A stretch of DNA of 64,000 bases from Sphaerochaeta sp. Phil3. Its GTDB lineage: Bacteria > Spirochaetota > Spirochaetia > Sphaerochaetales > Sphaerochaetaceae. The stretch is from the NCBI GenBank assembly GCA_001940825.1, contig MSGT01000061.1:87742-151741 (forward strand). Direction: 5' to 3'. The notes under the pieces were generated by a model. It was given only the letters and a program-made list of their open reading frames with translations. It searched no databases and was not told the origin of the DNA. This document shows, piece after piece, positions 6,321-61,767 of the stretch (position 1 is its first letter; each line of letters opens with the position of its first letter). The position numbers and the translations under genes were made by a program.

Positions 6321-6323
6321 CAA

Positions 6324-11257: not shown

Positions 11258-11268
11258 ATGCAATTCCT

Positions 11269-11310: not shown

Positions 11311-11350
11311 CCACATATGATATAGCCTTGACTGCAAGCAAATCAAGCTC

Positions 11351-11392: not shown

Positions 11393-11397
11393 ATAGG

Positions 11398-12594: not shown

Positions 12595-12769
12595 GGTTAT
12601 CTCTCCTTGTTTTGTTTTCAAAGCTGTTTTCGAAATTGTTTCCAAAACTTTACTTATTCAACATATGTGGATTATAATTGGGATTATACTTGTGCGGAAA
12701 AACTTGGTATCGGACGTTTGGATTTGCCCGTGGGGGATATTCAACACGGAGCCCAAATGTGAGGAGAAT

Positions 12770-13333: not shown

Positions 13334-13395
13334 GGCTTTTCAAAAAGTTGCAGTTAAAGTAATCTAACCTATGTAATCTACATAGAGGCCTTTAT

Positions 13396-14232: not shown

Positions 14233-14233
14233 T

Positions 14234-23983: not shown

Positions 23984-24469
23984 ATGCCTGAGGCATTCGA
24001 CTATTCGATTGTGGACGAGGCTCTGGCCAAATGCGGCGCAAAGCAGTCCTCCATCATTGCAATACTGCAGACGATACAGGAACACTACCACTACCTGCCG
24101 GAGGAGGTCTTCCCTTATCTGGCTGCAAAGCTTGATATGAGCGAAGCGCGCATCTACAGCGTGGCTACCTTCTATGAGAACTTCTCCCTTGAGAAGAAGG
24201 GAAAGTACGTAATCAAGTTCTGCGACGGCACCGCCTGTCATGTAAGAGGCTCCGTTCCAATTCTCGAAAGGGTCAGGTCTGAGCTTGGCGTCACTGCACA
24301 GAAGAAGACCACTGACGACCAGCTTTTCACGATTGAGACAGTGTCATGTCTTGGGGCCTGCGGTCTTGCACCTGTCATGACGGTCAACGACGAGGTCCAC
24401 CCTGCAATGACACCAGACAAGGCCATGGAGGTCATCTACAGCCTCAAGGTGAAGGAGGATGCAAGATGA
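23984..24469 (+). CDS. hydC: NADH-dependent hydrogenase subunit, NuoE-like [2Fe-2S] protein
   Basis: The 161-residue thioredoxin-like ferredoxin subunit has the four cluster cysteines in FCDGTACHVRG and VSCLGACGLAPVM. With HydB and HydA it makes a trimeric, probably electron-bifurcating, [FeFe] hydrogenase linking H2, NADH and ferredoxin. AAGGAG precedes ATG 23984. The stop overlaps the next start (ATGA). The A/B/C lettering follows the Thermotoga enzyme. Confidence 0.9.
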   Translation: MPEAFDYSIVDEALAKCGAKQSSIIAILQTIQEHYHYLPEEVFPYLAAKLDMSEARIYSVATFYENFSLEKKGKYVIKFCDGTACHVRGSVPILERVRSELGVTAQKKTTDDQLFTIETVSCLGACGLAPVMTVNDEVHPAMTPDKAMEVIYSLKVKEDAR

Positions 24470-26364: not shown

Positions 26365-26366
26365 GT

Positions 26367-45783: not shown

Positions 45784-47454
45784 TCAGCCTTCCGTGTAGC
45801 GTGGGAACTTTAGGGTGAAGACGGTGCCCTGCCCGGGTTTTGAGTCCACGAGGATGTCTCCGTCGTTGGCAATACAGGCGTGCTTTACGATTGCAAGTCC
45901 AAGTCCGGTGCCTCCGTTGGCCTTGCTGCGCGATTTGTCCACGCGGAAGAACCTCTCGAAGATTCTGTCCTGGTATTCCTCTGCGATTCCAATGCCGGTG
46001 TCGGCGACCTTTATGTATGAGAAGGCCTCGTCCTCAAGCGTGGTGATGCTTACGTGGCCACCGTTGTCCGAGTATTTTATTGCGTTGTCAACGAGGTTGA
46101 AGATTGCACTGTAGAGCATGGAGCTGCTTGCAAGAAGCTTCGTGTGGCCGCCCTGCACCGTAAGCGTGATGCCCTTTTCGTGCGCCAACTGCGAGAGGCT
46201 GTCCTTGATGGTGAGTGCGAGCTCGTGCGAATCCACCGCCTCCTTGACGACTCCTCCCTCGCGTTCCTCTATCTTGGAGAGTCTTATGATGTCCTCTATG
46301 AGACTTTTCATGTGCTGGCATTCGTTGTATATCTGCTCAAGGAACTGCTGTTTGTCCTCGTCCTTTACGATGCCTGACTTGAGAAGCTCTGCGCTGCCGG
46401 AGATGACATGAAGAGGGGTTTTGAGTTCGTGCGAGACGTTTGCCGTGAACTCGCGTCTGCGGTTCTCTATGTCGAGCTGTCGTGTTATATCGTAGAGAAG
46501 AATGGACGTTCCGCTTTTGACGCCATGGGAGACGAGGGCTGTGGTTTCTATCCTGTATGTGCGAGACTTGCTGTGGAGAAAGCCTGAATCCTCGAAACCG
46601 CTTTCTTGGCTTTCAATGGCCTGAGTCATCTCTTCTGGTAGTATTTCTCTATAATTCATGCCAAGTGGGCTATTCTTCATACCAAGAATTTTCATTGCAG
46701 ATTTGTTTATGAATGAAATTTCACCCTTTGCCCCAACAAGTATGAGCCCCTCACGCAGGGAGTCCGATATGGATTGGAACTCCGCCTGGTTCTTCTGAAG
46801 TTCCTTCTGCTGCTTGGATATGTCTATCTTCTGGTCCCATATCTTTGCAAGCAGCGGACGTATCTCCTTGTATTCGCTTGAAGGGTCCGGAGTCTCTATG
46901 TCTATCTCGTTCAACGGCTTTACGATGCGTATTGAAAGAAGCCTTGCGATCACAGCAGCAAGAACTATGGACAGCATTGCAACGAGGATTATCTCAAACC
47001 TCATTTCGAATATCGTGTCCCCAAACGTCATCATGGTGGTGGTAGCCACTATGACCGTTCCGTCCAAAAGGCTGCGGCCAGCCATGATGAGCTCGCCGAA
47101 CATGAAAGGCGTGTGAGTGCTTATTATGCGGTTGTAGTCCTGGACGACCTCTGACAGGAACGCCACAAGTGCGTTGTGGTCGGACACAAGGTACCACACG
47201 TCATCGGACGAGTCGTTGAGTATCTTGCCCGTTGGTGAGATTATCGTGATTCTGTAGTCGTGGGTGTTGAACCTTTCGACGAAGTCCTCTCCACCTACCA
47301 TGTAGCCGTTGGAGACTATGTCAACGACCTCTCTGAGCAGCAGTTCCTGCCTGCCCGTAAGCACCTTTGAGGTTGCGGAAACCGTGAGCATCACGGACAC
47401 CGTCATGATGACGAGCATTGCAAGAAGAAGCGACCACATGAGTCTTTTCGTCAT
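45784..47454 (-). CDS. Sensor histidine kinase (PhoR-like, with PAS domain)
   Basis: The 556-residue kinase has two transmembrane segments (residues 5-28 and ~150-170) enclosing a ~120-residue extracytoplasmic sensor. A HAMP-like region, a PAS domain (QSISDSLREGLILVGAKGEISFINKSAMKILGM) and a HisKA domain (ANVSHELKTPLHVISG, His at 342) follow. The ATPase domain shows NLVDNAIKYS, DTGIGI and GGTGLGLAIVKH. It overlaps the response regulator gene by four bases (ATGA). Confidence 0.92.
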   Translation of the reverse strand: MTKRLMWSLLLAMLVIMTVSVMLTVSATSKVLTGRQELLLREVVDIVSNGYMVGGEDFVERFNTHDYRITIISPTGKILNDSSDDVWYLVSDHNALVAFLSEVVQDYNRIISTHTPFMFGELIMAGRSLLDGTVIVATTTMMTFGDTIFEMRFEIILVAMLSIVLAAVIARLLSIRIVKPLNEIDIETPDPSSEYKEIRPLLAKIWDQKIDISKQQKELQKNQAEFQSISDSLREGLILVGAKGEISFINKSAMKILGMKNSPLGMNYREILPEEMTQAIESQESGFEDSGFLHSKSRTYRIETTALVSHGVKSGTSILLYDITRQLDIENRRREFTANVSHELKTPLHVISGSAELLKSGIVKDEDKQQFLEQIYNECQHMKSLIEDIIRLSKIEEREGGVVKEAVDSHELALTIKDSLSQLAHEKGITLTVQGGHTKLLASSSMLYSAIFNLVDNAIKYSDNGGHVSITTLEDEAFSYIKVADTGIGIAEEYQDRIFERFFRVDKSRSKANGGTGLGLAIVKHACIANDGDILVDSKPGQGTVFTLKFPRYTEG

Positions 47455-48125
47455 ACTTCAAGGAACCTGTATCCTATTCCGCGGACCGTTTGTATGTACT
47501 GCGAACATGGTCCAAGCTTTGTCCTTAGAGTGCCGATATGCACGTCCACGGTCCTTGATTCCTCGCTCTTCTCCTGGCCCCATATGGTCCTGAATATCTC
47601 TTCGCGCGAAAACAGGATACCTGCATTGGATATGAGAAGCCTAAGCAGCTCGTACTCCCTGCCTGTGAGCTTGAGAGGGCTGCCGTCAAGGTATGCGCAA
47701 TGTGCTTTCTCGTCCAACGAAAGCCTCCCTATTTCGAACGACGTACGCTTGTCTTCCTTGGGGGCGCATCTTCGCAGCACGGCCTTGACCCTTGAAATCA
47801 TCTCCATCATACCAAATGGCTTGCAAAGGTAGTCGTCTGCACCGTCATCCAGACCGATGACCTTGTCGTATTCCGTTCCTCGCGCAGTTGCGATTATGAC
47901 GGGTATCTTCTGGAACCTCTCGTTGGCCCTCATCTTCTTGAGTATGGATATCCCATCCTCTCCCGGCAGGTTGAGGTCAAGCATTATGAGGCTTGGAATC
48001 TCATTCTCCAAGGCATCCCACAGAGCCTTGCCGTCCTCAAGCCCCTTTGCATCGAAGCCTGATGCCTTTAGGCTGTAGACCATCATCCCCTGTATGGATT
48101 TGTCGTCCTCTACGCAGTAGATCAT
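47451..48125 (-). CDS. OmpR/PhoB-family response regulator
   Basis: The 224-residue regulator has a receiver domain (EDD near the start, phospho-Asp in LIMLDLNLPGEDG, Lys in LCKPF) and a winged-helix output domain (LKLTGREYELLRLL; RTVDVHIGTLRTKLG; QTVRGIGYRF). It forms the phosphorelay with the kinase downstream. TTAACC direct repeats about 110 bases upstream may be its own binding site. Confidence 0.93.
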   Translation of the reverse strand: MIYCVEDDKSIQGMMVYSLKASGFDAKGLEDGKALWDALENEIPSLIMLDLNLPGEDGISILKKMRANERFQKIPVIIATARGTEYDKVIGLDDGADDYLCKPFGMMEMISRVKAVLRRCAPKEDKRTSFEIGRLSLDEKAHCAYLDGSPLKLTGREYELLRLLISNAGILFSREEIFRTIWGQEKSEESRTVDVHIGTLRTKLGPCSQYIQTVRGIGYRFLEV

Positions 48126-48458: not shown

Positions 48459-49067
48459 ATGCGTAAATCAATCATCGCTTTGGTTGTCGTCGCTCTCATA
48501 GCGGTCGCAGTTCCTACACAGCTCTTCGCTGCAATCAGCGGAGCACCTTTGAAGCAATATGAATGCCCGTTCCTTCTCACCTCCGGTGGACAGGGTGCAG
48601 GTTCCAAGATGCTCAGGCTTCTTGTCAACCAGTCCAAGAAGTTCACGCTTGGAACGGATTTCTTCCTTGAAGACGAGACCCCTGCAAGGTACGACTACAT
48701 TGACAGCGGCAAGTACAAGGCCCTTGTAGTAGTCATGTCCGTTACAGAGAAGGGACTTGGTGCTTCCGGAATCACGATCGAGGACGAGATTGGATACCTC
48801 AAGAAGGTCGTGGAGAAGGCTCAGGCGCAGAACATGCCAATCATTGCGGTTTCAATGGAGAAGGATGCCCGTAGCACAATCAAGACCAATGGAAACGAAA
48901 GGGTCATCGACACCATTTGTCCAAACGCAGACTGGATCATCACCATTGCAGACAACAATACAGACGGCAGATTCACAGAGCTTGGCAAGCAGTACAACAT
49001 TCCTGTGACGATCATCGACAAGCCTCTTGAGCTCGTCAAGGTCCTTCCGGACATTTTTGTAAAGTAA
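48459..49067 (+). CDS. Secreted protein, DUF6305-like
   Basis: A signal peptide (MRKSIIALVVVALIAVAVPTQLFA) precedes ~178 residues. The body has a Rossmann-like alternation: FLLTSGGQGAGSKMLRLLVN, KYKALVVVMSVTEKGLGASGI, MPIIAVSMEKDA and ADWIITIADNNTDGRF. It resembles proteins annotated DUF6305, next to transporters in spirochaetes; this assignment is from memory. A periplasmic ligand-binding or accessory role is possible. AAAGGAG precedes the ATG. It is first in the block with the transporter 42 bases downstream. Confidence 0.65.
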   Translation: MRKSIIALVVVALIAVAVPTQLFAAISGAPLKQYECPFLLTSGGQGAGSKMLRLLVNQSKKFTLGTDFFLEDETPARYDYIDSGKYKALVVVMSVTEKGLGASGITIEDEIGYLKKVVEKAQAQNMPIIAVSMEKDARSTIKTNGNERVIDTICPNADWIITIADNNTDGRFTELGKQYNIPVTIIDKPLELVKVLPDIFVK

Positions 49068-49109
49068 TTCTTGTAACACAATTCAGAACAAACAATTAGG
49101 AGATATTGA

Positions 49110-50417
49110 ATGTCAGTAACAGCCTTGACGTTTATTCTGCTCCTCATAATGATTGCATCATTCGTGTTGAGCAGCATCAAGCTTAAATCACCGGACATCT
49201 CCATGGTTGTCGCGGCAATCGTGATAGCCGTTGTGGGCATGTTCATGTTCCCAGACCTTGGAAGTCCTGTGATGTACCTCGTTGAAGGTCTGTTCGTGAA
49301 CCTGGACCTTGCAATGCTGTTCATAGCAGCATCCATCTTCGTGAACATCTATTCGTATTCAGGTGCGGTTTCCACAATCACAAGGGGAATCGTAGAGAAG
49401 ATAAACAACAAGTGGCTCCTCATCACCATCATGGGTGTGCTCATGCTCATCCCTGGTGCACTCACCGGTGCAGGAAGCGTTGCAATCTTCGTCCTTGGCG
49501 GACTTGTGAATACCGTCCTCGAATCCCTTGGCGTGTCCAAGAGAAAGAGAACGGTCTTCATATTCTTCTTCGCCATACTCTCTGCCGCAGCACCTCCAAT
49601 CAACCTTTGGACCATGCTCATGACGGCACAGGCCAATATGCCTTACGTTGGATTCACATGGCTTCTTCTGGTTCCAATCTGCATAGCCGGTGCAATCTGC
49701 ATCGTGTACGTAGGTTGGGGTGCAAAGCCTGAACCAAAGGAAGAGACACTCAAGAAGCTTCCTGAGAGGACTGAGGGCATGACATGGTGGAGGATCCTCC
49801 TTCCTGTCGCAGCCATCATCGTCCTTTTCGTGCTCGCACTCGTAGCACCTTGGAACCTTCCTGTCCTTGGACTTCCACTCATGTTCGTCATAGCTGCAAT
49901 CGTGGCGCTCCTTTGTAACCCAAAGAAGACCACAGGCAAGCAGTACCTTGGAATCCTTGACGACACGATGGAGCAGGTGTTCCCGCTCGTCGCCAACGTC
50001 CTTTCCATTGGAGTGCTTCAGAGCGCAATGGCCGCAACAGGTGTCAGAGGCCTCATTGGAAGCACATGCGTAGGTCTTCCTCTCGTGCTCATCTACAGCC
50101 TCATCCTCATCATTGGACCAATCTGTCAGGGATGCTTCAACTACGGTTGTTCAGTCGTCCTGGGCGGACCTCTCATCTTCATGTTCAACACGCTTGGTAT
50201 GGACGTCACCGTCATATGTGCAGCGCTTTCGCTCATATTCCCAATTGGCGACTGCCTTCCACCTTCGCGTATCGTTGGACGTCTTGCATGTGAAGAGACC
50301 GGCTACACGGATTCCTATCTTGGATTCCTCAAGTCTGCACTCGTTCCAATCCTTGCGATTGGCCTCATAGCAGTCTTGATGATCGTCAAGCCGCTCTGGT
50401 TCACATTCTTGTATTAA
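49110..50417 (+). CDS. IT-superfamily (TRAP DctM/citrate-like) membrane transporter
   Basis: The 435-residue protein has about eleven transmembrane segments in two inverted halves, with the hairpin motifs PGALTGAGSVAIFVLGGLV and GPICQGCFNYGCSVVLGG. This architecture is that of ion-coupled organic-acid carriers. No TRAP DctP or DctQ protein of the usual kind is present; the secreted protein before it and the 57-aa membrane protein after it may stand in. The partner desuccinylase-like enzyme suggests an acylated amino acid or dicarboxylate substrate, by inference only. Confidence 0.78.
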   Translation: MSVTALTFILLLIMIASFVLSSIKLKSPDISMVVAAIVIAVVGMFMFPDLGSPVMYLVEGLFVNLDLAMLFIAASIFVNIYSYSGAVSTITRGIVEKINNKWLLITIMGVLMLIPGALTGAGSVAIFVLGGLVNTVLESLGVSKRKRTVFIFFFAILSAAAPPINLWTMLMTAQANMPYVGFTWLLLVPICIAGAICIVYVGWGAKPEPKEETLKKLPERTEGMTWWRILLPVAAIIVLFVLALVAPWNLPVLGLPLMFVIAAIVALLCNPKKTTGKQYLGILDDTMEQVFPLVANVLSIGVLQSAMAATGVRGLIGSTCVGLPLVLIYSLILIIGPICQGCFNYGCSVVLGGPLIFMFNTLGMDVTVICAALSLIFPIGDCLPPSRIVGRLACEETGYTDSYLGFLKSALVPILAIGLIAVLMIVKPLWFTFLY

Positions 50418-50429
50418 GGAGGCCAAAGT

Positions 50430-50603
50430 ATGGTATTTCTAGAGAATCTTATACACATTCTTTACTTCGTCATGGCAGGCCTCATTGGACTCAGCATGGT
50501 CAAGAGCCTTTTCAAGAGGAAGAAGAACGGTTCGATAGTCTTCGACATCATGTATGCCTACTGTCTCATCCCGTTCCTCCTTCGCGTCCTTTACATCAAG
50601 TGA
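50430..50603 (+). CDS. Small membrane protein in the transporter operon
   Basis: This 57-residue protein has two hydrophobic segments (ENLIHILYFVMAGLIGLSMV and FDIMYAYCLIPFLLRVLYI) separated by a basic KSLFKRKKNGS loop. AAGGAGG lies 8 bases before the ATG. It starts 12 bases after the transporter gene and ends eight bases before the desuccinylase-like gene. A regulatory or structural subunit of the transporter is the natural guess. No family is recognised. Confidence 0.75.
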   Translation: MVFLENLIHILYFVMAGLIGLSMVKSLFKRKKNGSIVFDIMYAYCLIPFLLRVLYIK

Positions 50604-50611
50604 GGTAGAAC

Positions 50612-51880
50612 ATGGAAGCAACAAAGAAAAGGTTCATACTTAAGATTGCAATTCTGGTCGTGATGCTGGTCTTCGCAGCCATAGCAGGTGTGAAGTTCTG
50701 GCAGCTCAGACACTACAAGGAGACCATAGTCCTTTCAGAGGACATCACTGACGTGAAATGGCTCTCCGACTACTGTCCATCGCTCAAGGATACCTGGCTC
50801 GATACGCCCGTCTTCATTGCAGACTCCGGCGTGGAGGGCGGCACGGTGTTCATCAACGGATGTCCCCACCCTTATGAGCCTGCATCCACAATGGCTGCAT
50901 TCCTCATGCTTGAGAACATCAAGGTGGAGAAGGGCAAGGTCATCATCGTACCAAGGGCCAACTACTCGGGTTCCACTGAGGGAATGGTCGGTGATGCATA
51001 CCCAAGGTTCTTCACTGTCGAAACCCAGTGGGGAGGAGAGACGTTCCGCATTGGCGACAGATACACCAACCCTCTTGACCAGTGGCCGGATCCATTCACA
51101 TACGTGAACTATCCATCTGGTCAAAACCTTGCATATCAGGATATCAGAAACCTCAACAGGACATATCCTGGCCGTGAGAACGGAACCATCACGGAGCGTG
51201 CCGCATACGCAATCATGGAGATAATCAGACAGGAAGACGTCGATATCGCCATTGACATGCACGAGGCTGAAATCCTCTATCCAGTCACAAGCACATATGT
51301 TGCACCTGCAAAGGTTCTGGATAGGGAGAAGTTCCTTGAGACCGGTGTCATGGAGTACATCGAGCCTGAGAGGAACTCCCTCGACGTTGCCATGATGGCA
51401 GCCATGAACATAGACCAGTTCTTCATGAAGTGCGCAGCTTCTCCAAACACCCTCCATGGCCTTAGCCACAGAGAATGGGCTGACTGGTCTGATGCCATGA
51501 CGTTCCTCATGGAGACCCCTGAGATCTTCATTGACAAGATCACAGGTCCAAGGACGGAGGCCCTCCTCTACGAAGGCAAGGACGAGTTCCTTCAGAACGT
51601 CACGGACAAGGGTCTTACATACTTCCCATACGACATGGAGTTTGGAACTCCAATGTGGTACAGGACAGCCCGTCACCTCTCTGGTGCAATGGAGATCATC
51701 AACTGGGCGGCTCTTTTCTACGATGATGTCGAATGCATCGTTTCTTGGCCTCTCTACGAGGAGATGGCTGAGATAGAGGAGCAGGGAATCGATTCCATTG
51801 GATACTTCCTCAAGAATCCAGATGCTCCAGAGAACGAAGCGAACAGATTCGTGATCTACCACAAGCCTGTGGAGAAATAG
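50612..51880 (+). CDS. Membrane-anchored succinylglutamate desuccinylase/aspartoacylase-like metallopeptidase
   Basis: An N-terminal transmembrane anchor (FILKIAILVVMLVFAAIAGV) precedes an M14-type zinc hydrolase: GCPHPYEPAS supplies the HxxE pair and AIDMHEAE the third ligand. Family members remove acyl groups from N-acyl amino acids such as succinylglutamate or acetylaspartate. Here the active domain would face the periplasm. Start has GAGG upstream and lies eight bases after the small membrane protein gene. The substrate is unproven. Confidence 0.8.
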   Translation: MEATKKRFILKIAILVVMLVFAAIAGVKFWQLRHYKETIVLSEDITDVKWLSDYCPSLKDTWLDTPVFIADSGVEGGTVFINGCPHPYEPASTMAAFLMLENIKVEKGKVIIVPRANYSGSTEGMVGDAYPRFFTVETQWGGETFRIGDRYTNPLDQWPDPFTYVNYPSGQNLAYQDIRNLNRTYPGRENGTITERAAYAIMEIIRQEDVDIAIDMHEAEILYPVTSTYVAPAKVLDREKFLETGVMEYIEPERNSLDVAMMAAMNIDQFFMKCAASPNTLHGLSHREWADWSDAMTFLMETPEIFIDKITGPRTEALLYEGKDEFLQNVTDKGLTYFPYDMEFGTPMWYRTARHLSGAMEIINWAALFYDDVECIVSWPLYEEMAEIEEQGIDSIGYFLKNPDAPENEANRFVIYHKPVEK

Positions 51881-51893
51881 AAATTGGTATTCT

Positions 51894-51931
51894 TGCACCC
51901 TTTGGTTGGCAGCCTGCCGACTAGGGGTGCA
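51894..51931 (+). other. Nested hairpin before the first C69 peptidase gene
   Basis: TGCACCC pairs with GGGTGCA, enclosing a second stem GTTGGC/GCCGAC. It lies 28 bases before ATG 51960 and is followed by only TTT. It may attenuate or stabilise the mRNA between the transporter part and the peptidase part of the block. Confidence 0.6.
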
Positions 51932-51959
51932 TCTTTGAAAAAAAGAAGGAGAAAAACGT

Positions 51960-53564
51960 ATGAAGAAATTTTTCTTGGTTCTGACCGTTGCACTGCTTGT
52001 CGCAGTTGGAACGCTTGGAGCTTGTACTATCTTTGCAGTAGGCAAAGGTGCCACGGTTGACGGTTCGACCATGTCCACCCACTCCTGCGACTCGACAAGC
52101 GATGACCTTCGTGTTTGGCTCATCCCAAGCATGCCGGCAGGTACTGAGCGCGACGTCGTCCTCGACGGACGTGCGGGTGCCGACTATTCGCAGTTCCCAG
52201 CTGTCAAGGACTATGGTAAAAACGGAATGGTCCTTGATACCTATACGACTGAAAGGGATACCAACAGATACATCCACGCAATGTATTCCTTCATGAACGA
52301 CAAGGGCCTTGCAATGGGCGAGTCCACATGTTCCTACGATAGAAACAGCGAACAGGGCAAGCTCGTCAAGAAGGCTTTTGCAAACAAGGAAGGCATCTAC
52401 GACTGCTACATGCTTCAGGACATAGCTCTTGAGAACTGCAACACAGCACGCGAGGCTGTTGAGTTCATGGGCAAACTCGTAACCGAGTACGGCTGGAACG
52501 GCAGTGCAGAGTGTATAGATATCTGTGACGGAAACGAAGCATGGGTCTTCGAAGTCTACGGTGCAAACTATTGGGTTGCAGCTAGGGTTCCAGATGACAT
52601 GATCTTTGTGGCCGCAAACAGAGCAAGGATCAACTTCTTCGTCGAAGACGATCCAGACAACTACCTCTATGCCCCTGGCATCAAGGAGTTTGCAATAGAG
52701 AATGGACTTTGGGACGGCGAAGGCGACTTCATCCCTTGCTACACATTCGCTCCATATCCATACAGACCATACTCCACAAGAAGAGAGTGGGTTGCAATGA
52801 TGACGCTCGATCCAACTCTCAACCTTGATCCGGAAGAGAAGGACACTGACCGCAACTGGCCTTGCTTCGTCAAGCCTCAGAACAAGGTCTCAGTCCAGGA
52901 CATCTTCGAGCTTTACGGAAACTACTATCAGGGCACAGAGTACGACACGACCAAGTCCATTTGGGCAGGTCAGTTCGGCGATCCTCTCAACCCAGCACAG
53001 GACTGGACGCAGAGAGCCATCAACAGCTATCGCTGCACGTATGTTCAGATTGCAAACGTCAAGTCATGGCTTCCTGAAGAGGCAAGATGTCTCGTATGGT
53101 TCGGCTGGGGTGCACAGTCCTGCACATACCTCACACCGCTCTTTGGTTCACAGCTTTCACTTCCTGAGCACTTTGGCCGTGGATTCAGAAGCGAATACGA
53201 CGAGAACTCCGGTTGGTGGAACAACGTCCTCGTACAGCAGCTTGCAAGAATCAACTATACAGCTGCAATCGAAGACATCAAGGCCGCTAGGGACCAGAAG
53301 ATGCTCGACCAGTACGACATCACATTTGCAATCCAGAATCAGGCTGCAAAGATGATAAAGAACGGACAGAAGGAAGCTGCTCTTGAGCTTCTTACGACCT
53401 ACTCCAACCAGCAGGCCAACATGTGGTTCGAGACATACGACGATCTTGCAAAGACCCTCATCTCCAACTACATGCTTGGTGCGGTCAAGGGTTCGACATG
53501 GGGCATTCCATACACCGATTTCTGGAACGAGCTTTCAGCATCGGAATGGGGCCAGTACAAATAA
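51960..53564 (+). CDS. Exported C69-family dipeptidase, copy 1
   Basis: The 534-residue Ntn-hydrolase begins with a signal peptide (MKKFFLVLTVALLVAVGTLGA). The residue after it is Cys in CTIFAVGKGATVDGSTM, which would become the N-terminal nucleophile after cleavage, as in PepD-type C69 peptidases. Typical motifs follow: HAMYSFMNDKGLAMGESTC, GIYDCYMLQDIALENC, AWVFEVYG, FVAANRARI and LPEEARCLVWFGWGA. It would cleave dipeptides in the periplasm. The first of three tandem paralogues. GGAG precedes the ATG. Confidence 0.9.
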   Translation: MKKFFLVLTVALLVAVGTLGACTIFAVGKGATVDGSTMSTHSCDSTSDDLRVWLIPSMPAGTERDVVLDGRAGADYSQFPAVKDYGKNGMVLDTYTTERDTNRYIHAMYSFMNDKGLAMGESTCSYDRNSEQGKLVKKAFANKEGIYDCYMLQDIALENCNTAREAVEFMGKLVTEYGWNGSAECIDICDGNEAWVFEVYGANYWVAARVPDDMIFVAANRARINFFVEDDPDNYLYAPGIKEFAIENGLWDGEGDFIPCYTFAPYPYRPYSTRREWVAMMTLDPTLNLDPEEKDTDRNWPCFVKPQNKVSVQDIFELYGNYYQGTEYDTTKSIWAGQFGDPLNPAQDWTQRAINSYRCTYVQIANVKSWLPEEARCLVWFGWGAQSCTYLTPLFGSQLSLPEHFGRGFRSEYDENSGWWNNVLVQQLARINYTAAIEDIKAARDQKMLDQYDITFAIQNQAAKMIKNGQKEAALELLTTYSNQQANMWFETYDDLAKTLISNYMLGAVKGSTWGIPYTDFWNELSASEWGQYK

Positions 53565-53579
53565 TAGGAGGATTGTAGA

Positions 53580-55220
53580 ATGAAGAAAGTGTTTTTGGCG
53601 GTTCTGGTAGTCCTCCTCGTGGCTGCCCAGAGCGTAGCTGCATGTACCATATTTGCAGTTGGAAAGAACGCAACGGTCGATGGTTCGACCATGACGAGCC
53701 ACACATGTGACTCAAACTCGGACGATGTCAGAATCTGGCTCATCCCATCCATGGAAGCAGGTACTGAAAGGGACGTCGTCGTATCCGGTAGAAAGGGTGC
53801 CGACTACTCGCAGTTCCCAGCAGTTAAGGACTACGGTACGAACGGCATCGTCCTTGATTCCTACATAAACGAGAAGGCTACCAACCAGTACGTCCACGCT
53901 ATGTACTCCTTCATCAACGACAAGGGCCTTGCAATGGGCGAGTCCACATGCGTATACGACTGGTCAGCTGAAAAGAGCAAGCCTGTCAGAGAATGGATGA
54001 GCAAGAGCGAAGGAATCTGGGACTGCTACATGCTTCAGGATGCCGTCCTTGAGAACTGCTCCACAGCCCGTGAGGCAATCGCATTCATGGCAGAGAAGAT
54101 CGAGAACGACGGTTGGAACGGATTCTGCGAATGCATCAATCTCACAGACGGAAACGAAACGTGGGTCTTCGAGGTCTACGGCGGAACCGCTTGGGTTGCA
54201 ATGAGAGTTCCAGATGACTGCGTATTCGTAGCTGCAAACCGCGCTAGGATCGACTACCTCATCGAGAACGACCCTGACAACTGCCAGTACAATCCAAACA
54301 TCAAGCAGATCGCCATTGAGAACGGACTTTGGAACGGCGAAGGCGAGTTCAGACCAAACGATGTGTTCTGTCCAAACGCAGTCGAGAACATGGGATGCAC
54401 GCTCAGAGAGTGGAGAGCCATCACACTTCTGAACCCAGAGCTCTACGGCGACCTCGATCCATGGGGAGATCCTGATGACTACCCATTGTTCGTCAAGCCT
54501 GACCACCTTCTCACAGTCGATGACATCCATCGCTTCTGCTCCGACTACTATGCAGGAACGCAGTTCGACCTTTCCCGTACAGCCGATGCCGGTGACTTTG
54601 GCAACGTCCTGAGCAACTACCACAACAGCCTCAAAAAGGCCACCAGGGAAGGTGTTGCAAGACCAATCAACATGTTCCGTGCAACATACGTCCAGATCTC
54701 CCAGATCAAGGCATACCTCCCAGAAGAGGCAAGATGTCTTGTTTGGATGGGTTGGGGCGCACCAAGCACAACATACCTCACTCCAGTGTTCGCTTCTGCA
54801 ACGGAGCTTCCTGAGCACTTTGGACGCGGCGTGAGAACGGAATACGATGAGAAGTCCGGTTTCTGGAACACCGTCAACGTACAGCAGCTTTCAACCATCA
54901 ACTACCGCTCTGCAATCGAGGACATAAAGGAAGTCAGAGATCCAAAGATGGCATCCATCTACGAGCAGACAGCGGTTGCACAGGAAGTTGCAGCTTCCAT
55001 GATCAACGCTGGTCAGAAGGACCTTGCAGTCAAGTACCTCACAGGCTACACGGTTGCGGTTGCAAACGACTGGTTCGATACATACCAGGCACTTGGTGAC
55101 AAGCTCCTTGCAAAGTACATGTTCGGAAACGTCAACATGAAGGTTCCGGCAAGGTCCGACTGGTGGAAGAACATCGTATTCGAGACTGTCAGCAACAACC
55201 TTAGACCAGAGGAAGTCTAA
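53580..55220 (+). CDS. Exported C69-family dipeptidase, copy 2
   Basis: The 546-residue paralogue of the preceding gene starts 15 bases after it with AGGAGG. The signal peptide (MKKVFLAVLVVLLVAAQSVAA) is followed directly by Cys in CTIFAVGKNATVDGSTM. It keeps ESTC, GIWDCYMLQDAVLENC, WVFEVYG, FVAANRARIDY and LPEEARCLVWMGWGA. Differences concentrate around residues 255-360, which may alter substrate range. Confidence 0.9.
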   Translation: MKKVFLAVLVVLLVAAQSVAACTIFAVGKNATVDGSTMTSHTCDSNSDDVRIWLIPSMEAGTERDVVVSGRKGADYSQFPAVKDYGTNGIVLDSYINEKATNQYVHAMYSFINDKGLAMGESTCVYDWSAEKSKPVREWMSKSEGIWDCYMLQDAVLENCSTAREAIAFMAEKIENDGWNGFCECINLTDGNETWVFEVYGGTAWVAMRVPDDCVFVAANRARIDYLIENDPDNCQYNPNIKQIAIENGLWNGEGEFRPNDVFCPNAVENMGCTLREWRAITLLNPELYGDLDPWGDPDDYPLFVKPDHLLTVDDIHRFCSDYYAGTQFDLSRTADAGDFGNVLSNYHNSLKKATREGVARPINMFRATYVQISQIKAYLPEEARCLVWMGWGAPSTTYLTPVFASATELPEHFGRGVRTEYDEKSGFWNTVNVQQLSTINYRSAIEDIKEVRDPKMASIYEQTAVAQEVAASMINAGQKDLAVKYLTGYTVAVANDWFDTYQALGDKLLAKYMFGNVNMKVPARSDWWKNIVFETVSNNLRPEEV

Positions 55221-55234
55221 TTATTCAGGTTATT

Positions 55235-55334
55235 CAAGAGGGGTTGCAAAGCCCCTCGACGATTCAGGAATCCCAAGGGTTGGCCACTAGAAACGGTCGG
55301 CCCAAGGGAATCGGTCTTGGCGAATCGCTATTCG
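55235..55334 (+). other. Cluster of hairpins between C69 copy 2 and the lipoprotein gene
   Basis: GAGGGG/CCCCTC form one stem at 55235-55258, an imperfect stem spans about 55270-55310, and GCGAAT/ATTCGC form a third at 55319-55334. No long T tract follows. The folded spacer probably affects mRNA processing or downstream expression. Confidence 0.45.
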
Positions 55335-55350
55335 CTATAAGGAGCAGATG

Positions 55351-55713
55351 ATGAAGAAAAGCAGACTTATGATTTTGGCGGCCTTCGTGGTCATGGCATT
55401 GACCCTTGTAGGCTGCGCTTCCTCCATCTCAGGCGAGCCAATGAAGGCTCAGGACACATACGAGATAGTTGGCTACAGCTACGTCTTCACCCTTGATGGA
55501 AACAAGGTTGAGGTGAACTATGTGGACTGGTATGGAGACGAAGAGATAAAGGGCATGGAGGAGGCCTTCATGTCAATGGTTCCAAAGGCACGCAGTGCAG
55601 AGAGCCCCGTCTCCGGTACAATCGTCGTGACGGCCAAGAGGAACCTTACGCTTGATGAGTTCGCATCCTTCGTAGAGGGAGCCAAGGAACTCGTCTACAA
55701 TCAGATATTCTAA
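55351..55713 (+). CDS. Small lipoprotein, paralogue A
   Basis: The 120-residue protein has a lipoprotein signal peptide (MILAAFVVMALTLVGC, lipobox LVGC) and a ~95-residue domain: YEIVGYSYVFTLDGNKVEVNYVDWYGDEE, then SGTIVVTAKRNLTLDEFASFVEGAKELVYNQIF. The same layout recurs at 57455. No named family is recognised. It sits between C69 copies 2 and 3. The second of two adjacent ATGs is better spaced from AAGGAG. Confidence 0.75.
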   Translation: MKKSRLMILAAFVVMALTLVGCASSISGEPMKAQDTYEIVGYSYVFTLDGNKVEVNYVDWYGDEEIKGMEEAFMSMVPKARSAESPVSGTIVVTAKRNLTLDEFASFVEGAKELVYNQIF

Positions 55714-55714
55714 T

Positions 55715-55745
55715 GGATTCTCCATCCTTTGGAGAAATCCTTTTT
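55715..55745 (+). terminator. Terminator after lipoprotein A
   Basis: GGATTCTCC and GGAGAAATCC form a stem with one bulge around ATCCTTT, followed by five T, directly after the lipoprotein stop. Confidence 0.75.
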
Positions 55746-55759
55746 GGAAGGGAGTTTGA

Positions 55760-55789
55760 TTGGCGTCCCTGAGAGATCCTGGATGCCAA
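55760..55789 (+). other. Hairpin upstream of C69 copy 3
   Basis: TTGGCGTCC and GGATGCCAA pair (one G-T) around a 12-base loop, 33 bases before ATG 55823. It is analogous in position to the hairpin before copy 1. Confidence 0.5.
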
Positions 55790-55822
55790 TTGAATCATAG
55801 AAAAGCACAAAAGGAGTGTTTT

Positions 55823-57421
55823 ATGAAGAAAATCGTCATTACTGCATTGCTTATTGCATGTATTGCCGTTCAGAGCGTCTTCGCCTGCTTCATCACTGGA
55901 GTAGGTAGACTCGCCTCCGCTGATGGTTCGACCATGACGTCACATACGTGTGACAGTGCCAGCGATGATCTTAGACTTTGGCTCATCCCTTCAATGGCTG
56001 AGGGAACTGAGCGTGAAGTCGTTGTTGATGGAAGAAAGGATGCCGATTTCTCCAATTTCCCGGAAGTGAAGGACTACGGCGCAAGGGGCATCGTCCTCGA
56101 TTCATACATCAATGACAAGGATACATATCAGTATCTCCATGCAATGTATTCATTTGCAAACGAAAAAGGCGTCACGATGAACGAGTCCACCTGCGGATGG
56201 ACCAAGGCTCAGAGAGAGACCCTTGCTGCATACGAAGGGATCTGGGACTGCTACATGCTCCAGGACGCCGCTCTTGAGAACGCCGCAACCGCAAAGGAAG
56301 CTGTTGATTTCATGGGTGCAAAGATCACCGAGCAGGGTTGGAACGGCTGGCCGGAGTGTATTGTCGTAGCTGACGGAACGGACGTTTGGGTATTCGAAGC
56401 ATACGGTGGACACATGTGGTGTGCATTCAAGCTTCCTGACGATGCGTTCTTCTTCTGCGCAAACCGCTGTAGGATAGACTTCTGGGAAGAGGATTCCGAC
56501 ACATACCTTTCCGCTCCAAACATGAAGGAGTTCGCTCTTGAGACCGGTCTTTGGAACGGCGAAGGCGAGTTCAGACCATGTCAGGTCTTCGCAGCTGGAA
56601 ACTACTCCTTCAGCTGCATTGGAAGAGAGTGGAGAGTCCTCGTGACGCTCGAAAGCGACTACACGGCAGATGTCATTGGAAAGGACGAGCTTGCATACTG
56701 CGAGACTCCAGACGATACTTTCCCACTTTACTTCACACCTTATGAGAAGATAACCGTTGGAACCATTGCAAGGATCTGTTCGGACAACTACGAAGGAACA
56801 AAGTACGACGGAACCAAGTCCGCATACGCAGGCATGCACGGCAACGTCCTCTCCGTTCCATACGAGTACAGACCAACCAACGTCCCACAGTGCACGTACT
56901 TCCAGATCTCCAACGTAAAGGCATGGCTTCCTGAGGAGGCAAGATGTCTCGTATGGTTCGGCTGGGGTGCACCAAGCACGACATACCTCACACCTGTATT
57001 CGCTTCCCAGACTGAGCTCGCACCTCACTTTGGAGTTGGAACAAGGTATGAGTACGATCCAAATTCCGGTTGGTGGAACGAAGCCCTCGTGCAGACGGCT
57101 GCAACGCTCAATTATGCCGATGCCATCGAGGTCATCAAGTCCGTCAGAGATCCTCTCATGGAGGCTCAGTACGAAGCCACGTTCGCAATCCAGAACCAAG
57201 CTGCAAAGATGATCAAGAACGGCCAGCGCGACGAGGCCATCAAGCTTCTCACGACCTATGCGAACTATCAGGCAGAGATGTGGTTCGATCTCTACGGAGA
57301 CCTTTCCGAAGAGCTTCTTGCCAGGTACGTCGTTGGTAGAGTCAACATGAAGTCTTCTCCTGCCCTCCATAAGGATTGGTGGAAGGAAGTCGTGTCAGCT
57401 GTTTCAGCTTTGGACAAGTAG
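55823..57421 (+). CDS. Exported C69-family dipeptidase, copy 3
   Basis: The 532-residue paralogue has signal peptide MKKIVITALLIACIAVQSVFA followed by Cys in CFITGVGRLASADGSTM, so the nucleophile is kept but the following residues differ from copies 1 and 2 (TIFAVGK). It is the most divergent copy, with an extra Cys pair region (FSCIGREWR). ESTCGW, GIWDCYMLQDAALEN and LPEEARCLVWFGWGA remain. AAGGAG precedes ATG 55823; an upstream in-frame start at 55760 overlaps the hairpin and is unlikely. Confidence 0.9.
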   Translation: MKKIVITALLIACIAVQSVFACFITGVGRLASADGSTMTSHTCDSASDDLRLWLIPSMAEGTEREVVVDGRKDADFSNFPEVKDYGARGIVLDSYINDKDTYQYLHAMYSFANEKGVTMNESTCGWTKAQRETLAAYEGIWDCYMLQDAALENAATAKEAVDFMGAKITEQGWNGWPECIVVADGTDVWVFEAYGGHMWCAFKLPDDAFFFCANRCRIDFWEEDSDTYLSAPNMKEFALETGLWNGEGEFRPCQVFAAGNYSFSCIGREWRVLVTLESDYTADVIGKDELAYCETPDDTFPLYFTPYEKITVGTIARICSDNYEGTKYDGTKSAYAGMHGNVLSVPYEYRPTNVPQCTYFQISNVKAWLPEEARCLVWFGWGAPSTTYLTPVFASQTELAPHFGVGTRYEYDPNSGWWNEALVQTAATLNYADAIEVIKSVRDPLMEAQYEATFAIQNQAAKMIKNGQRDEAIKLLTTYANYQAEMWFDLYGDLSEELLARYVVGRVNMKSSPALHKDWWKEVVSAVSALDK

Positions 57422-57454
57422 GTTTGGACAAGTAAGTTTGGGAGAAAGACATAA

Positions 57455-57820
57455 ATGAAAAGAGCAAAGACAATAACAATCCTTGCAATCCTGCTGGTTG
57501 TACTTTGTCTTACATCCTGCTCCACAACATGGAAGAAGACCCAAGGGCTCAATGCCGAGGTCGCATACCGTCTTGTAGGCTATGACTATATCTTTAGCCT
57601 TGACGGCAACGAAGTCACTTTCAAGTATGTGGATGCAGTTGGAGACGATGAAGTCCCTGTAATCGCTGCGGCTCTCATGGGAGTTCTCCCTGGCGCCGTT
57701 GGATATGAAGCCCCAATTGGTGGAACCATTGTCCTCAAGGCAAAGGCCAACCTCACTGAGGCCCAGTTCAACGAGTTCGTAGCCGCCGCCCAAGCGCTTA
57801 TCTACGATACCATCTATTGA
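57455..57820 (+). CDS. Small lipoprotein, paralogue B
   Basis: The 121-residue lipoprotein (MKRAKTITILAILLVVLCLTSC, lipobox LTSC) matches paralogue A along its length: YRLVGYDYIFSLDGNEVTFKYVDAVGDDE, then GGTIVLKAKANLTEAQFNEFVAAAQALIYDTIY. Each lipoprotein follows a C69 gene, implying duplication of a peptidase-lipoprotein module. A short duplicated TTGGACAAGTA straddles the stop of the preceding gene. Confidence 0.75.
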   Translation: MKRAKTITILAILLVVLCLTSCSTTWKKTQGLNAEVAYRLVGYDYIFSLDGNEVTFKYVDAVGDDEVPVIAAALMGVLPGAVGYEAPIGGTIVLKAKANLTEAQFNEFVAAAQALIYDTIY

Positions 57821-57828
57821 TTTGACTT

Positions 57829-57874
57829 TGCACGGCATGCTTGGTTTCATCTATGATTCCACGTGTGCCGTGCA
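57829..57874 (+). terminator. Terminator-like inverted repeat before pgsB
   Basis: TGCACGGCA and TGCCGTGCA form a perfect 9-bp stem with a 28-base loop, followed by TTTATATT. The long loop makes termination uncertain. Confidence 0.5.
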
Positions 57875-57996
57875 TTTATATTCCAGGGAAGCTGTCGAAT
57901 GAAGCTGTCGAAGTTTTCCTTCCTGTGGTATTATGCTATGGTATTGAGGGGTGCTGGATCTGGTCCGGCACCTTTGTTGTTGGTGGAAGGCTTGCC

Positions 57997-59151
57997 ATGG
58001 TTATTGTTTTCACATTGACGGCGGTGCTTCTCGTCCTTGGATTGGTCGAAGCCCGCAGACACAGAAAGAACCTCAACGATGTCCCAATAAGGATTCTTGT
58101 AAACGGAACACGGGGCAAAACCACGCTTGCAAGACTTCTTGTCGCCAGCCTCAATGTACAAGGCATCCGCACGATGGGCCGTACAACAGGCTCCGAGGCC
58201 ACCATCATATACCCCGATGGCTCTGTAAAGCCAATCGTCCGCAAACGACGTGCACGAGTCTATGAGCTGGTGCCGTTTTTCAGGGAGGTCTCATTGGAAT
58301 CCTCTAGAGGCGTTTCAAGCGGTCTTGGTCCTGTCCAGTGTGTGGTGGTGGAGTGCATGGCTCTTCAGGCTGAGAACCAAGTGGCCTTCCGCGACTGGCT
58401 TGTAAGGCCAACCCATGTATTTATCACGAACACCTATGTAGACCATGTCCCTGAGATGGGCCCTACACGGGAGAGCTCCGCACAGGTTTTGGGTTTGAGC
58501 GTGCCTAAAGGTGCATCGTTGTATGTCTCCGATTCCTTCTATGATAGGCTCGATGCGAGAGTTGTCCATGTGTGCGACGCGGCTCCCCTTGAGAATCACC
58601 TTGAGGATCCCGTCATCCATCCTTCGTGCATGGCAATGGCGTGGGCGTTCCTCAAGGACATGGGATTTGGAATTGAGACGCTTCAGGTCGGTGTTTCAGC
58701 GTTCGTTCCAGACAAGGGGCTTCTTGAGCCGTTTCCGTTGCGCGGGGGTGGGGTCTTCGTTCCAAGCTTCAGCGTAAATGACGAGACCTGCATGGAGGAA
58801 ACCATACGCAAATGGAGCTCTTCGTGCGGAGGAAAAGTCAATGTTGTATTCAACAGCCGCAAGGACAGGGAGCAGCGGATTCTGCTGTTCAAGAACGTTA
58901 TGTCTAGGGTTTGCGATTTGGTGGATGATGTCCTAGTAATTGGAGACTATCCTAAAAAAGTGGCTTTCTATATTGGTTATGGTGCTGTTTCGTGTTCCGT
59001 AGAAGAAGTCTTTGATAAAGTGTCGTCCAGCTCCGGTGCTGTTTTCGTAGGTCTTGGAAACATCAAGGGAGCCGGCGAGGAGCTTATTGGAAAGCTTCAG
59101 AGTTGTGATGGCGGCTGTGATGATGGCTGTGATGGAAAGGGGGCTGTATAA
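57997..59151 (+). CDS. pgsB: Poly-gamma-glutamate synthase ligase subunit (PgsB/CapB)
   Basis: The 384-residue amide ligase, related to Mur ligases, joins glutamate through gamma bonds using ATP. An N-terminal membrane anchor is followed by the P-loop NGTRGKTTLARLL, then TTGSEA, VVVECMALQAENQ and FITNTYVDHVPEMG, all typical of CapB. GGAAGG lies 6 bases before ATG 57997; an upstream extension is spurious. The C-terminus ends in a repeat-derived SCDGGCDDGCDGKG. The TAATG junction overlaps pgsC. Confidence 0.92.
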   Translation: MVIVFTLTAVLLVLGLVEARRHRKNLNDVPIRILVNGTRGKTTLARLLVASLNVQGIRTMGRTTGSEATIIYPDGSVKPIVRKRRARVYELVPFFREVSLESSRGVSSGLGPVQCVVVECMALQAENQVAFRDWLVRPTHVFITNTYVDHVPEMGPTRESSAQVLGLSVPKGASLYVSDSFYDRLDARVVHVCDAAPLENHLEDPVIHPSCMAMAWAFLKDMGFGIETLQVGVSAFVPDKGLLEPFPLRGGGVFVPSFSVNDETCMEETIRKWSSSCGGKVNVVFNSRKDREQRILLFKNVMSRVCDLVDDVLVIGDYPKKVAFYIGYGAVSCSVEEVFDKVSSSSGAVFVGLGNIKGAGEELIGKLQSCDGGCDDGCDGKGAV

Positions 59152-59579
59152 TGCTTTTCGAATTGGTGTCGCTTAGCGTCGTACTAAGCCTTGTATGTAC
59201 TGAGTTCACTGGTCTCTTCGCCGGAGGCTTGGTCTCCGCAGGGTACTTTGCGTACTACTTCCATGAGCCTTCAAGGATTGCCTCGTCCCTTGTGGTCGCC
59301 GTTTTGATATGCCTTGTCGTCAAGCTCCTGCAGCATGTGCTCATATTGTATGGAAGAAGACGCTTTGCTTTGTCGTTGGTGCTGTCGCTTGCCGCTGTGT
59401 GGGCTTTGGAGAAGACCTTCTTCCTGTATTCAGGTCTTTCCGTCGATATCCGTGTAATCGGATACATCATCCCAGGTCTCATTGCCTCTGACATGGAGAA
59501 GCAGGGCATTTTCAAGACATTGGGAGTGCTTGCCGCCATAACATTGGTCATAAGACTCATCGTGGTCCTTGGATTGTAG
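59151..59579 (+). CDS. pgsC: Poly-gamma-glutamate synthase membrane subunit (PgsC/CapC)
   Basis: The 142-residue membrane protein has about four or five transmembrane segments and the CapC-like stretch CTEFTGLFAGGLVSAGYFAYYFHEP near the start and GYIIPGLIASDMEKQGI later. It works with PgsB in polymer synthesis and translocation. Its start shares bases with the pgsB stop. Confidence 0.9.
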   Translation: MLFELVSLSVVLSLVCTEFTGLFAGGLVSAGYFAYYFHEPSRIASSLVVAVLICLVVKLLQHVLILYGRRRFALSLVLSLAAVWALEKTFFLYSGLSVDIRVIGYIIPGLIASDMEKQGIFKTLGVLAAITLVIRLIVVLGL

Positions 59580-59605
59580 ATTTTAGGTGTGATTTGGGGT
59601 CTGAT

Positions 59606-60733
59606 ATGCGTATAGGAAAGCCTTTCTTGATTGCCGCTTTGGTTGTTCTGGTGATTGGTACATGTCTTGTGTACTTTTTGGCCCAGAAGTCCGATTCCGA
59701 TTACAAGGACCTCCAGTATGCCGCCGCACGGCGCATGGAGGAGGCCGAATCGTTCTTGAAGGAACGTATCGTGTCCCTTGGAATCCCTTTCGAGGACACT
59801 GATTTGAACTCCACCGGTTTGATTGGGCCAGAGTTCACTGAACTTACATCCACACCTGGGGACGAAAAGGCAAAGAGATCGGCCTTGAATCCATTGTTCT
59901 CCGCCGCCATGGTGCGCTATTTCCATGAAGCGGGCTTGGAGAAGGGAAGTGTAGTCGCTGTTGGAGCAAGCGGCTCGTTCCCAGGCTTCGTAATTGCAGT
60001 GCTTACCGCCGCAACGGAGATGGAGCTTGATACAAGGCTCATCGTTTCATGTGGTGCAAGCATGCACGGTGCAACACGGGTGGAGTACAACGTCTTCGAC
60101 ATAGTAGGGGATCTTCTGGATGCTGGGCTTGTTGACTGCAACGTCCTTGCCGTATCGCCCGGAAGTGCAAACGACAAGGGCGGTGGGGTGTTCGAGGATT
60201 TCCTTTACTTTGGAAGTGCAGATCTTTCAGTGAATCTGTGCAAGGCCGCCTCCTCTAGGTTTGATGCTGAGTTCATCTACTATGATGACCTGGCTCAGAA
60301 CATAGTCCATAGAAAAGAGCTCTATGGTGACGATGTGGACCTCTTTGTGAATATCGGTGGTGCCGCTGTAAACAACGGAACCAGCTCCTATTCGTTGGCG
60401 TTTCAACAGGGTCTGGTGATGCCTGACCAAGCTCCAGAGGCCCCTTCCTCTCCAACCCGCGGCTTGAACTATGAGTTCTCCTCAATTGGCGTTCCCGTCA
60501 TAAATCTTTTGAATGTGAAGCTTCTATGCCAAGAGAACGGAATTACATTCGACCCTGTGCCGTTGCCTTCAGTGGCTTCGTTCGATTCGTTCGATTGGCC
60601 AGGCCTTCAGACCGTTTCATATAACAAGTTCATTGCTTTTGGAACGCTTGCCGTCGCATTTGGCGTGCTTGCTGCAGGTGTCGTCGTCGATGTGAGGAAA
60701 AGAAGGATTCTGAAGAAGGAGAGTTGCAAGTGA
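59606..60733 (+). CDS. pgsW: Poly-gamma-glutamate system protein (PgsW)
   Basis: The ~375-residue protein has a transmembrane segment at each end (FLIAALVVLVIGTCLVYFLA; FIAFGTLAVAFGVLAAGVVV) around a periplasmic domain (VVAVGASGSFPGFVIAVLTAA; LDTRLIVSCGASMHGATR; SPGSANDKGGG). This matches the protein found with pgsB and pgsC in clusters lacking pgsA. Its role is unknown. ATG 59606 is chosen over a TTG four codons earlier. Confidence 0.85.
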   Translation: MRIGKPFLIAALVVLVIGTCLVYFLAQKSDSDYKDLQYAAARRMEEAESFLKERIVSLGIPFEDTDLNSTGLIGPEFTELTSTPGDEKAKRSALNPLFSAAMVRYFHEAGLEKGSVVAVGASGSFPGFVIAVLTAATEMELDTRLIVSCGASMHGATRVEYNVFDIVGDLLDAGLVDCNVLAVSPGSANDKGGGVFEDFLYFGSADLSVNLCKAASSRFDAEFIYYDDLAQNIVHRKELYGDDVDLFVNIGGAAVNNGTSSYSLAFQQGLVMPDQAPEAPSSPTRGLNYEFSSIGVPVINLLNVKLLCQENGITFDPVPLPSVASFDSFDWPGLQTVSYNKFIAFGTLAVAFGVLAAGVVVDVRKRRILKKESCK

Positions 60734-61767
60734 GGAGAATCCTTGGCCTTGTCTGTTTTGTCCTCTTTATGCTGTGCCTCCTTTTTGGATGTTCTTCTTC
60801 CGCCGGTGTCGTAGATGGCGGCAACGTCGTCAATGATGAAGTTCTTGGCAGTGATGGCAGACCGCTGGTGGTTGGGATTGCATGGAGGCAGGATGTGAAG
60901 AGTTCTGCTTTCATGCGGGTCGTCGATTATTTCTCCTCTGCTGGCTTTGAAGTCGTTGTTTTGGGCCAGACCACTTCTTCGTCCCTTGGATACTATCCTG
61001 ATGGGACTTTGTCCGATACCTATGTCAATCTTGATTTCTCCTTGACGGATGAGTGTGTGGAGATCCTTAGAACTTGTTCCGTGGATGTTCCTTCAGGGGT
61101 TTCAGATGTGGATTTGATTGTATTTACAGGTGGCGAGGATGTATCTCCAACGCTGTATGGAAAACCCTTTGATATGGATTCCTTGGACTTTTCAGACATG
61201 TATGTCTACAATGCCAATCGTGATGTCTCGGACTACCTTCTTATGCGCTATGCTTTGGACAACGATATCCCTGTTTTGGGAATATGCCGTGGAATGCAGA
61301 TGCTTGCAATTGCAACCGGCTATTGTTTGATAGAAGACATACCTTCGTACTATACTTCAAACGGGGTGTCTGATGCTGCCATGCACAGAGCTGTGGATGG
61401 AGGCTATTCGTTCCATGATGTCTTTGTCGAAAGCTCTGACAGCCATGGCCTATTTGAAGCAAGTGAGGTTTTCACCGTTGCCTCGTCACACCACCAAGCG
61501 GTGGATATGATCAATACGTACTCAGGCTCTAGTCTGACTTCGTGTGTCTCTTTCACCGCCTTCGACCGCCCTGGCGACTGTCTTGGTGGTCTTGGGTGCC
61601 CTGAAGGTGTCTGCATCGTAGAGGTCATGGAACGTACTGACAAACTCTTTGCCGTTGGCATCCAGTTCCATCCTGAATACTTCGTAGACCACCATGACGG
61701 ACCTGGCCATGAAGCCTCTGTCCGCTTCATAGAAAGACTTAAGAATTTCCTGATGTGCGATTTTTAG
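60730..61767 (+). CDS. Lipoprotein of the gamma-glutamyl hydrolase / class I amidotransferase family (C26)
   Basis: The 345-residue protein starts with a lipobox signal peptide (CFVLFMLCLLFGC). The catalytic triad of C26 peptidases is visible: GICRGMQMLAIATG (Cys), ASSHHQAVD and GIQFHPEY (His, Glu). Members hydrolyse gamma-glutamyl bonds. Being surface-anchored and next to pgsBCW, it may trim or release gamma-polyglutamate. The start is GTG 60730, overlapping the pgsW stop, with AAGGAG 8 bases upstream. Confidence 0.88.
   Translation: MRRILGLVCFVLFMLCLLFGCSSSAGVVDGGNVVNDEVLGSDGRPLVVGIAWRQDVKSSAFMRVVDYFSSAGFEVVVLGQTTSSSLGYYPDGTLSDTYVNLDFSLTDECVEILRTCSVDVPSGVSDVDLIVFTGGEDVSPTLYGKPFDMDSLDFSDMYVYNANRDVSDYLLMRYALDNDIPVLGICRGMQMLAIATGYCLIEDIPSYYTSNGVSDAAMHRAVDGGYSFHDVFVESSDSHGLFEASEVFTVASSHHQAVDMINTYSGSSLTSCVSFTAFDRPGDCLGGLGCPEGVCIVEVMERTDKLFAVGIQFHPEYFVDHHDGPGHEASVRFIERLKNFLMCDF

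Follow-up and report, generated by a model that had tools for sequence, protein, structure and literature searches.

Poly-gamma-glutamate is known mainly from Bacillus, where its synthesis involves PgsA and the hydrolases are separate. Two enzymes of Bacillus and its phage, the GGT-family CapD and the zinc-dependent PghP, have this polymer as substrate (PMC4497714). Outside Bacillus, Fusobacterium nucleatum has been reported as a polyglutamate producer, in work that PMC3815933 and PMC4497714 cite. Here, we describe a block of 13 genes in Sphaerochaeta sp. Phil3 (contig MSGT01000061.1), lying within the 64,000-nucleotide stretch of DNA that was analysed, which we call the window. The block holds genes for PgsB, PgsC and a protein called PgsW, preceded by genes for several hydrolases and for a putative carrier. 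We consider it probable that all of these genes serve a single system of the cell envelope, which would combine synthesis, extracytoplasmic cutting and re-uptake of a gamma-glutamyl polymer, with poly-gamma-glutamate as the likeliest candidate. The direct evidence for this reading comes from gene content, a conserved gene order, co-occurrence across genomes, the exchange of one hydrolase family for another and conserved catalytic residues.

Gene order and co-occurrence across genomes

Linkage was surveyed with the permease as the only query, hence without bias towards pgs genes, and the 25 loci obtained from Spirochaetota and Clostridia were annotated with the window proteins. The order DUF6305, permease, small protein, AstE, C69, pgsB, pgsC, pgsW is conserved in six Spirochaetota loci (L090, L092, L097, L100, L101, L107) and in five loci of Clostridia and relatives (L105, L108, L109, L112, L113). 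The window departs from this core by a triplication of C69, two inserted lipoprotein genes and an appended C26 gene; the lipoproteins and the C26 enzyme are lineage-specific additions that do not belong to the core, and relatives of the second lipoprotein lie directly before pgsB in several genomes. A plasmid collection search added only Cetobacterium somerae (Fusobacteriota), a member of the same family as Fusobacterium nucleatum. Its plasmid p1 (NZ_CP143320.1) carries, in this order, GGT, DUF6305, TRAP large permease, a 48-codon open reading frame (ORF), succinylglutamate desuccinylase, pgsB, pgsC and pgsW. An earlier, sequence-only reading of this DNA had proposed that pgsBCW belong with the transporter, deacylase and C69 genes, and had suggested conservation in spirochaetes as a check. 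Both ideas hold in the loci compared, Spirochaetota and Clostridia sharing one gene order and Fusobacteriota having a GGT form; the two parts are linked in relatives, and they co-occur even where they are unlinked.

In a second type of locus, present in other spirochaetes as well as in Cetobacterium, GGT replaces C69, which is missing, and adjoins DUF6305, the permease and AstE. This arrangement is found linked to pgs genes (L114, L130, L141, L175) and unlinked from them (L145, L147-L149), GGT identity being confirmed by PF01019 for L114 and L145 and assigned by similarity in the remaining loci. C69 and GGT are both families of N-terminal-nucleophile hydrolases. Their exchange points to a gamma-glutamyl substrate, and it is the strongest clue to the substrate chemistry of the system. 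Two further features of GGT-type loci were observed. An exported 406-aa protein without a Pfam match adjoins GGT in most of these modules (L145:13168-14388; L130, L141, L147-L149, L151, L152), and a different kinase and response-regulator pair, a candidate regulator, lies within the GGT-type cluster in two phyla (L114:5941-7954, L170:5484-7386; 31-40% identity).

The position of the synthase genes also varies. In a rumen-associated clade (L094-L096, L099; DISPLACEMENT), pgsBC lie upstream of DUF6305, and the PgsB of this clade branches away from that of other spirochaetes, whereas its permease groups with theirs. We take this to mean that pgsBC were replaced and that linkage was then regained, a case that is only moderately strong because the PgsB sequences are divergent.

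Co-occurrence was examined in 139 genomes of the family. PgsC, counted above its cut-off, is present in 25 of them. The permease (either type at E below 1e-30, plus a truncated type-B match in G238) is found in 24 of these 25 and in 0 of the 114 genomes lacking PgsC, while DUF6305 occurs in 23 genomes, all inside the PgsC set. The genome sets with secreted C69 and with permease A are identical (19/19), a further C69 in G240 being excluded from the count as a different, classic-type match (E 6e-160). Fisher p values range from 1e-18 to 1e-26, uncorrected for relatedness of the genomes.

Since physical linkage explains part of this co-occurrence, the unlinked cases matter. The genome of the window has a second, GGT-type module on contig C11 (L145, about 4284-14388), without pgs genes and, from contig geometry, at least 46 kb from those of the window; it consists of the unknown 406-aa protein, GGT, a permease-like protein, an AstE-like protein, DUF6305, the permease and two further AstE-like proteins. 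In G240 and G242, module and pgs genes are unlinked on long contigs. Two more loci (L104, L111) have the module without adjacent pgs genes, and a genome search located PgsC elsewhere in both; another (L106) ends at a contig end inside pgsB. Conversely, pgsBCW stand alone in five Spirochaetota loci sampled outside the family (L171-L174, L176). Because unlinked modules keep pgs genes elsewhere and pgsBCW can stand alone, the module depends on pgs, and not the reverse, in the genomes checked. Thus, the module seems to be an accessory to whatever the pgs genes produce.

Proteins of the block

Both PgsC (TIGR04011, 102.9 vs 96.45 bits) and PgsW (TIGR04332, 261.6 vs 100 bits) exceed their curated cut-offs. 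The P-loop of PgsB (GTRGK) is invariant in the aligned relatives. The PgsW gene adjoins pgsB and pgsC in nearly all loci compared and occupies the position that PgsA has in Bacillus. Its predicted structure (pLDDT 89.1) has alpha/beta lobes between two membrane helices, and the charge distribution suggests that the globular part is extracytoplasmic; a fold search of the model against the PDB gave no useful counterpart (TM-score about 0.4 or less). That pgsA is absent had been noted for the block, and it can be extended to the whole genome (95.9% complete), which has zero PF09587 matches. The nearest relatives have an additional PgsW of divergent sequence, which forms a pair with the C26 lipoprotein and is oriented away from DUF6305 (L089:1036-2995, L091:3216-5179, L110:282-2238); in the window, the C26 gene is kept after the sole PgsW.

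The three C69 copies match PF03577 at 1.1e-42 to 2.4e-56, and the equivalog cut-off of NF033678 is not reached (206.7 vs 250). In all aligned C69 sequences, the signal peptide ends in an invariant Ala-Cys pair, so that cleavage there, the presumed processing step, would expose the nucleophile Cys. The AstE-like protein of the window is nearest to DoeB/AstE; the zinc ligands H, E and H, in the motifs HxxE and DxH, and the late catalytic Glu are invariant in 19 of 19 sequences, including the paralogue after PgsW. For the C26 lipoprotein, the PDB matches are PuuD and relatives.

The carrier genes are less easily classified. The window permease scores below the cut-off of PF06808 (20.6 vs 23.8 bits, E 2.2e-4), a family that 12 of its 14 relatives match (best 7.6e-17), and a comparison with solved structures gave no match. 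The DUF6305 gene always neighbours the permease gene. The DUF6305 model (pLDDT 87.9) is a small exported protein with one alpha/beta domain, so that the previous label of a binding-like protein is not supported, as the model is not two-lobed; a fold search for a known function gave no useful match (TM-score about 0.4 or less). The tiny membrane protein (47-57 aa) is found at the same place, between permease and AstE, in GGT-type loci too, and a C-terminal LLRxL pattern is common to the proteins of those loci as well.

The co-directional block of 13 genes that had been read from the sequence is confirmed by the ORF listing of the window (Table 1), in which neighbouring ORFs overlap twice and are otherwise no more than 176 bp apart. 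Judged against relatives, the start given for PgsB is the most likely one and that given for the third C69 copy is likely.

Table 1. Genes of the block, with window positions and the matches or features that support their assignment
Feature	Position	Strand	Evidence
DUF6305 exported protein, signal peptide, single alpha/beta domain	48459..49067	+	PF19823 1.3e-32
DctM-like permease, 435 aa, about 12-13 hydrophobic segments	49110..50417	+	PF06808-type, weak alone
57-aa protein with two transmembrane segments, between permease and AstE-like gene	50430..50603	+	
AstE/AspA-like zinc hydrolase, N-terminal membrane anchor	50612..51880	+	2.3e-4, conserved metal ligands
Secreted C69 hydrolase copy 1, Cys directly after signal peptide	51960..53564	+	PF03577 7.6e-56
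Secreted C69 hydrolase copy 2	53580..55220	+	PF03577 2.4e-56
Small lipoprotein 1, 121 aa, lineage-specific	55348..55713	+	lipobox in sequence; without Pfam family
Secreted C69 hydrolase copy 3, start corrected	55823..57421	+	PF03577 1.1e-42
Small lipoprotein 2, 121 aa, paralogue of lipoprotein 1	57455..57820	+	
PgsB, Mur-ligase-like synthase, P-loop GTRGKT, N-terminal membrane helix, start corrected	57997..59151	+	TIGR04012 7.5e-55
PgsC membrane protein	59151..59579	+	PF14102 4.7e-30; TIGR04011 above cut-off
PgsW, globular domain flanked by two membrane helices	59594..60733	+	TIGR04332 9e-78
C26 gamma-glutamyl hydrolase-like lipoprotein	60724..61767	+	PF07722 4.9e-26

Within the block, an RNA family scan gave no score near the gathering threshold, and a promoter and terminator scan gave counts close to the shuffled expectation. 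Directly before pgsB (57947-57975), the sequence can form a hairpin of 13 pairs followed by a weak T tail, which may be an attenuator or nothing. Upstream, the minus strand encodes a histidine kinase together with a response regulator of the OmpR type (45784-48125), divergent from the block; as a conserved regulator this pair was rejected, as it is not retained beside the block in most relatives. Elsewhere in the window there are a gene for a 402-aa reverse transcriptase (RVT_1; 801-2009) and adjoining genes for a NuoF-like protein and an iron-only hydrogenase (24346-28058), consistent with an NAD-linked or bifurcating hydrogenase.

Proposed mechanism and alternatives

For this system we infer the polymer, every enzyme activity, the sequence of steps and the direction in which transport runs, as follows. 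At the inner membrane, PgsB, an ATP-dependent ligase, would build the chain together with PgsC; PgsW, standing in for PgsA, would help the chain to cross this membrane. Outside the membrane, the N-terminal-nucleophile hydrolases (three C69 enzymes here, GGT in the other version) would trim or depolymerise the chain, as could the anchored AstE-like zinc enzyme and, in this locus, the C26 lipoprotein. The set formed by DUF6305, the DctM-like permease and the tiny membrane protein would then reimport the released glutamate or gamma-glutamyl units. It is tempting to go further and to see here, tentatively and at somewhat less than even odds, a closed-loop polyglutamate system spread over at least three phyla. 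Such a synthase would be genetically tied to its own depolymerase, C69 and GGT being interchangeable, and to a new DctM-based carrier with DUF6305 as exported subunit and a membrane subunit of roughly 50 aa, with which cells would coat themselves with an external polymer, or store it, and later reclaim it.

Several observations weigh against a polyglutamate system of this kind. PgsB is below its curated cut-off (TIGR04012, 186.2 vs 222.7 bits), and the AstE-like protein misses its Pfam cut-off (21.2 vs 25 bits, 2.3e-4), which its paralogues pass. The structurally known relatives of the C69 enzymes are dipeptidases, not known depolymerases. In the co-occurrence set, the p values overstate independence because the genomes are related, and in the sole exception, G143, pgsBCW are present at the end of a contig but the permease is missing. 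Moreover, capB and capC are dispensable for the capsule in Francisella (PMC4688374), so PgsW-type loci may make something else.

A different use of the same polymer, maturation or anchoring, in which the hydrolases cut it and attach it to the envelope as CapD does, with the permease moving a precursor or a counter-solute, seems unlikely to us. Several hydrolase classes together with a DctM-like carrier resemble a capacity for breakdown and uptake, and TRAP carriers are importers. In favour of attachment, the cap operon encodes a GGT-family enzyme, CapD, that joins poly-gamma-glutamate to the cell wall (PMC4497714).

It is less probable still that PgsBCW make something else, for example short gamma-glutamyl chains or a small molecule with a gamma-glutamyl modification, which the hydrolases and the permease would process. 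The precedent is Francisella capBCA, in which capA has the same system-protein annotation as PgsW, and which is not needed for the capsule and has an unknown product (PMC4688374, PMC5362203); an AstE-like enzyme would also fit an acyl-glutamate. However, PgsC and PgsW are above their curated cut-offs, and the report of polyglutamate from F. nucleatum cited above argues against a different product. Finally, the idea that a secreted dipeptidase and amino-acid uptake operon lies beside pgsBCW by chance, which could appeal to the known roles of C69 and C26 enzymes in general peptide and polyamine metabolism and to the spirochaete loci with pgsBCW alone, is very improbable and largely refuted by the same order across distant phyla, the near-perfect co-occurrence, the presence of pgs genes even when unlinked and the linkage regained after the apparent displacement of pgsBC.

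Significance and comparison with described systems

What is already known is that automatic annotation has named the single genes and that, in the citing papers mentioned above, F. nucleatum is reported to make polyglutamate. In the open-access literature, most subscription literature not being searchable, no paper was found that deals with DUF6305, with PgsW as a protein or with the cluster as a whole, and the phrase 'poly-gamma-glutamate system protein' is used there in one paper, for Francisella capA. In the single envelope system that we favour, a PgsW-type synthase would come with a carrier and with hydrolases of its own, in spirochaetes, clostridia and fusobacteria, several of which live in the rumen or in animal guts. 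This reading suggests functions for DUF6305, PgsW and the tiny permease partner, which had none, and a likely class of substrate for secreted C69 enzymes, and it opens the function of PgsW-type loci to tests in harmless organisms that carry them.

Among described systems, the Bacillus loci pgsBCA(E) and capBCADE share PgsB and PgsC homologues with the block, and the cap operon of Bacillus anthracis also shares a gamma-glutamyl-active N-terminal-nucleophile enzyme, CapD (PMC4497714). In contrast to these loci, the block has PgsW instead of PgsA and has C69 or GGT built in, together with an AstE-like enzyme and the DUF6305/DctM-like carrier. PghP-type hydrolases, which are carboxypeptidase-related zinc enzymes, are broadly comparable to the AstE-like protein (PMC4497714); however, no sequence match to PghP was found, and the AstE-like protein is membrane-anchored and closest to DoeB/AstE. 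Francisella capBCA resembles the block in that its capA is annotated as a poly-gamma-glutamate system protein, as PgsW is (PMC5362203), but it is described as a three-gene locus dispensable for the capsule (PMC4688374). The carrier recalls TRAP (DctPQM), as its large permease resembles DctM and the genes for an exported and a small membrane protein adjoin it, whereas its exported partner is the single-domain DUF6305 and not a two-lobed DctP, and its small partner has 47-57 aa and two transmembrane segments and not the four of DctQ. The locus on Cetobacterium somerae plasmid p1 has the same core genes in the same order as the window block, and differs in having GGT for C69, in lacking the lipoproteins and C26, and in that the cluster also includes a kinase and a response regulator.
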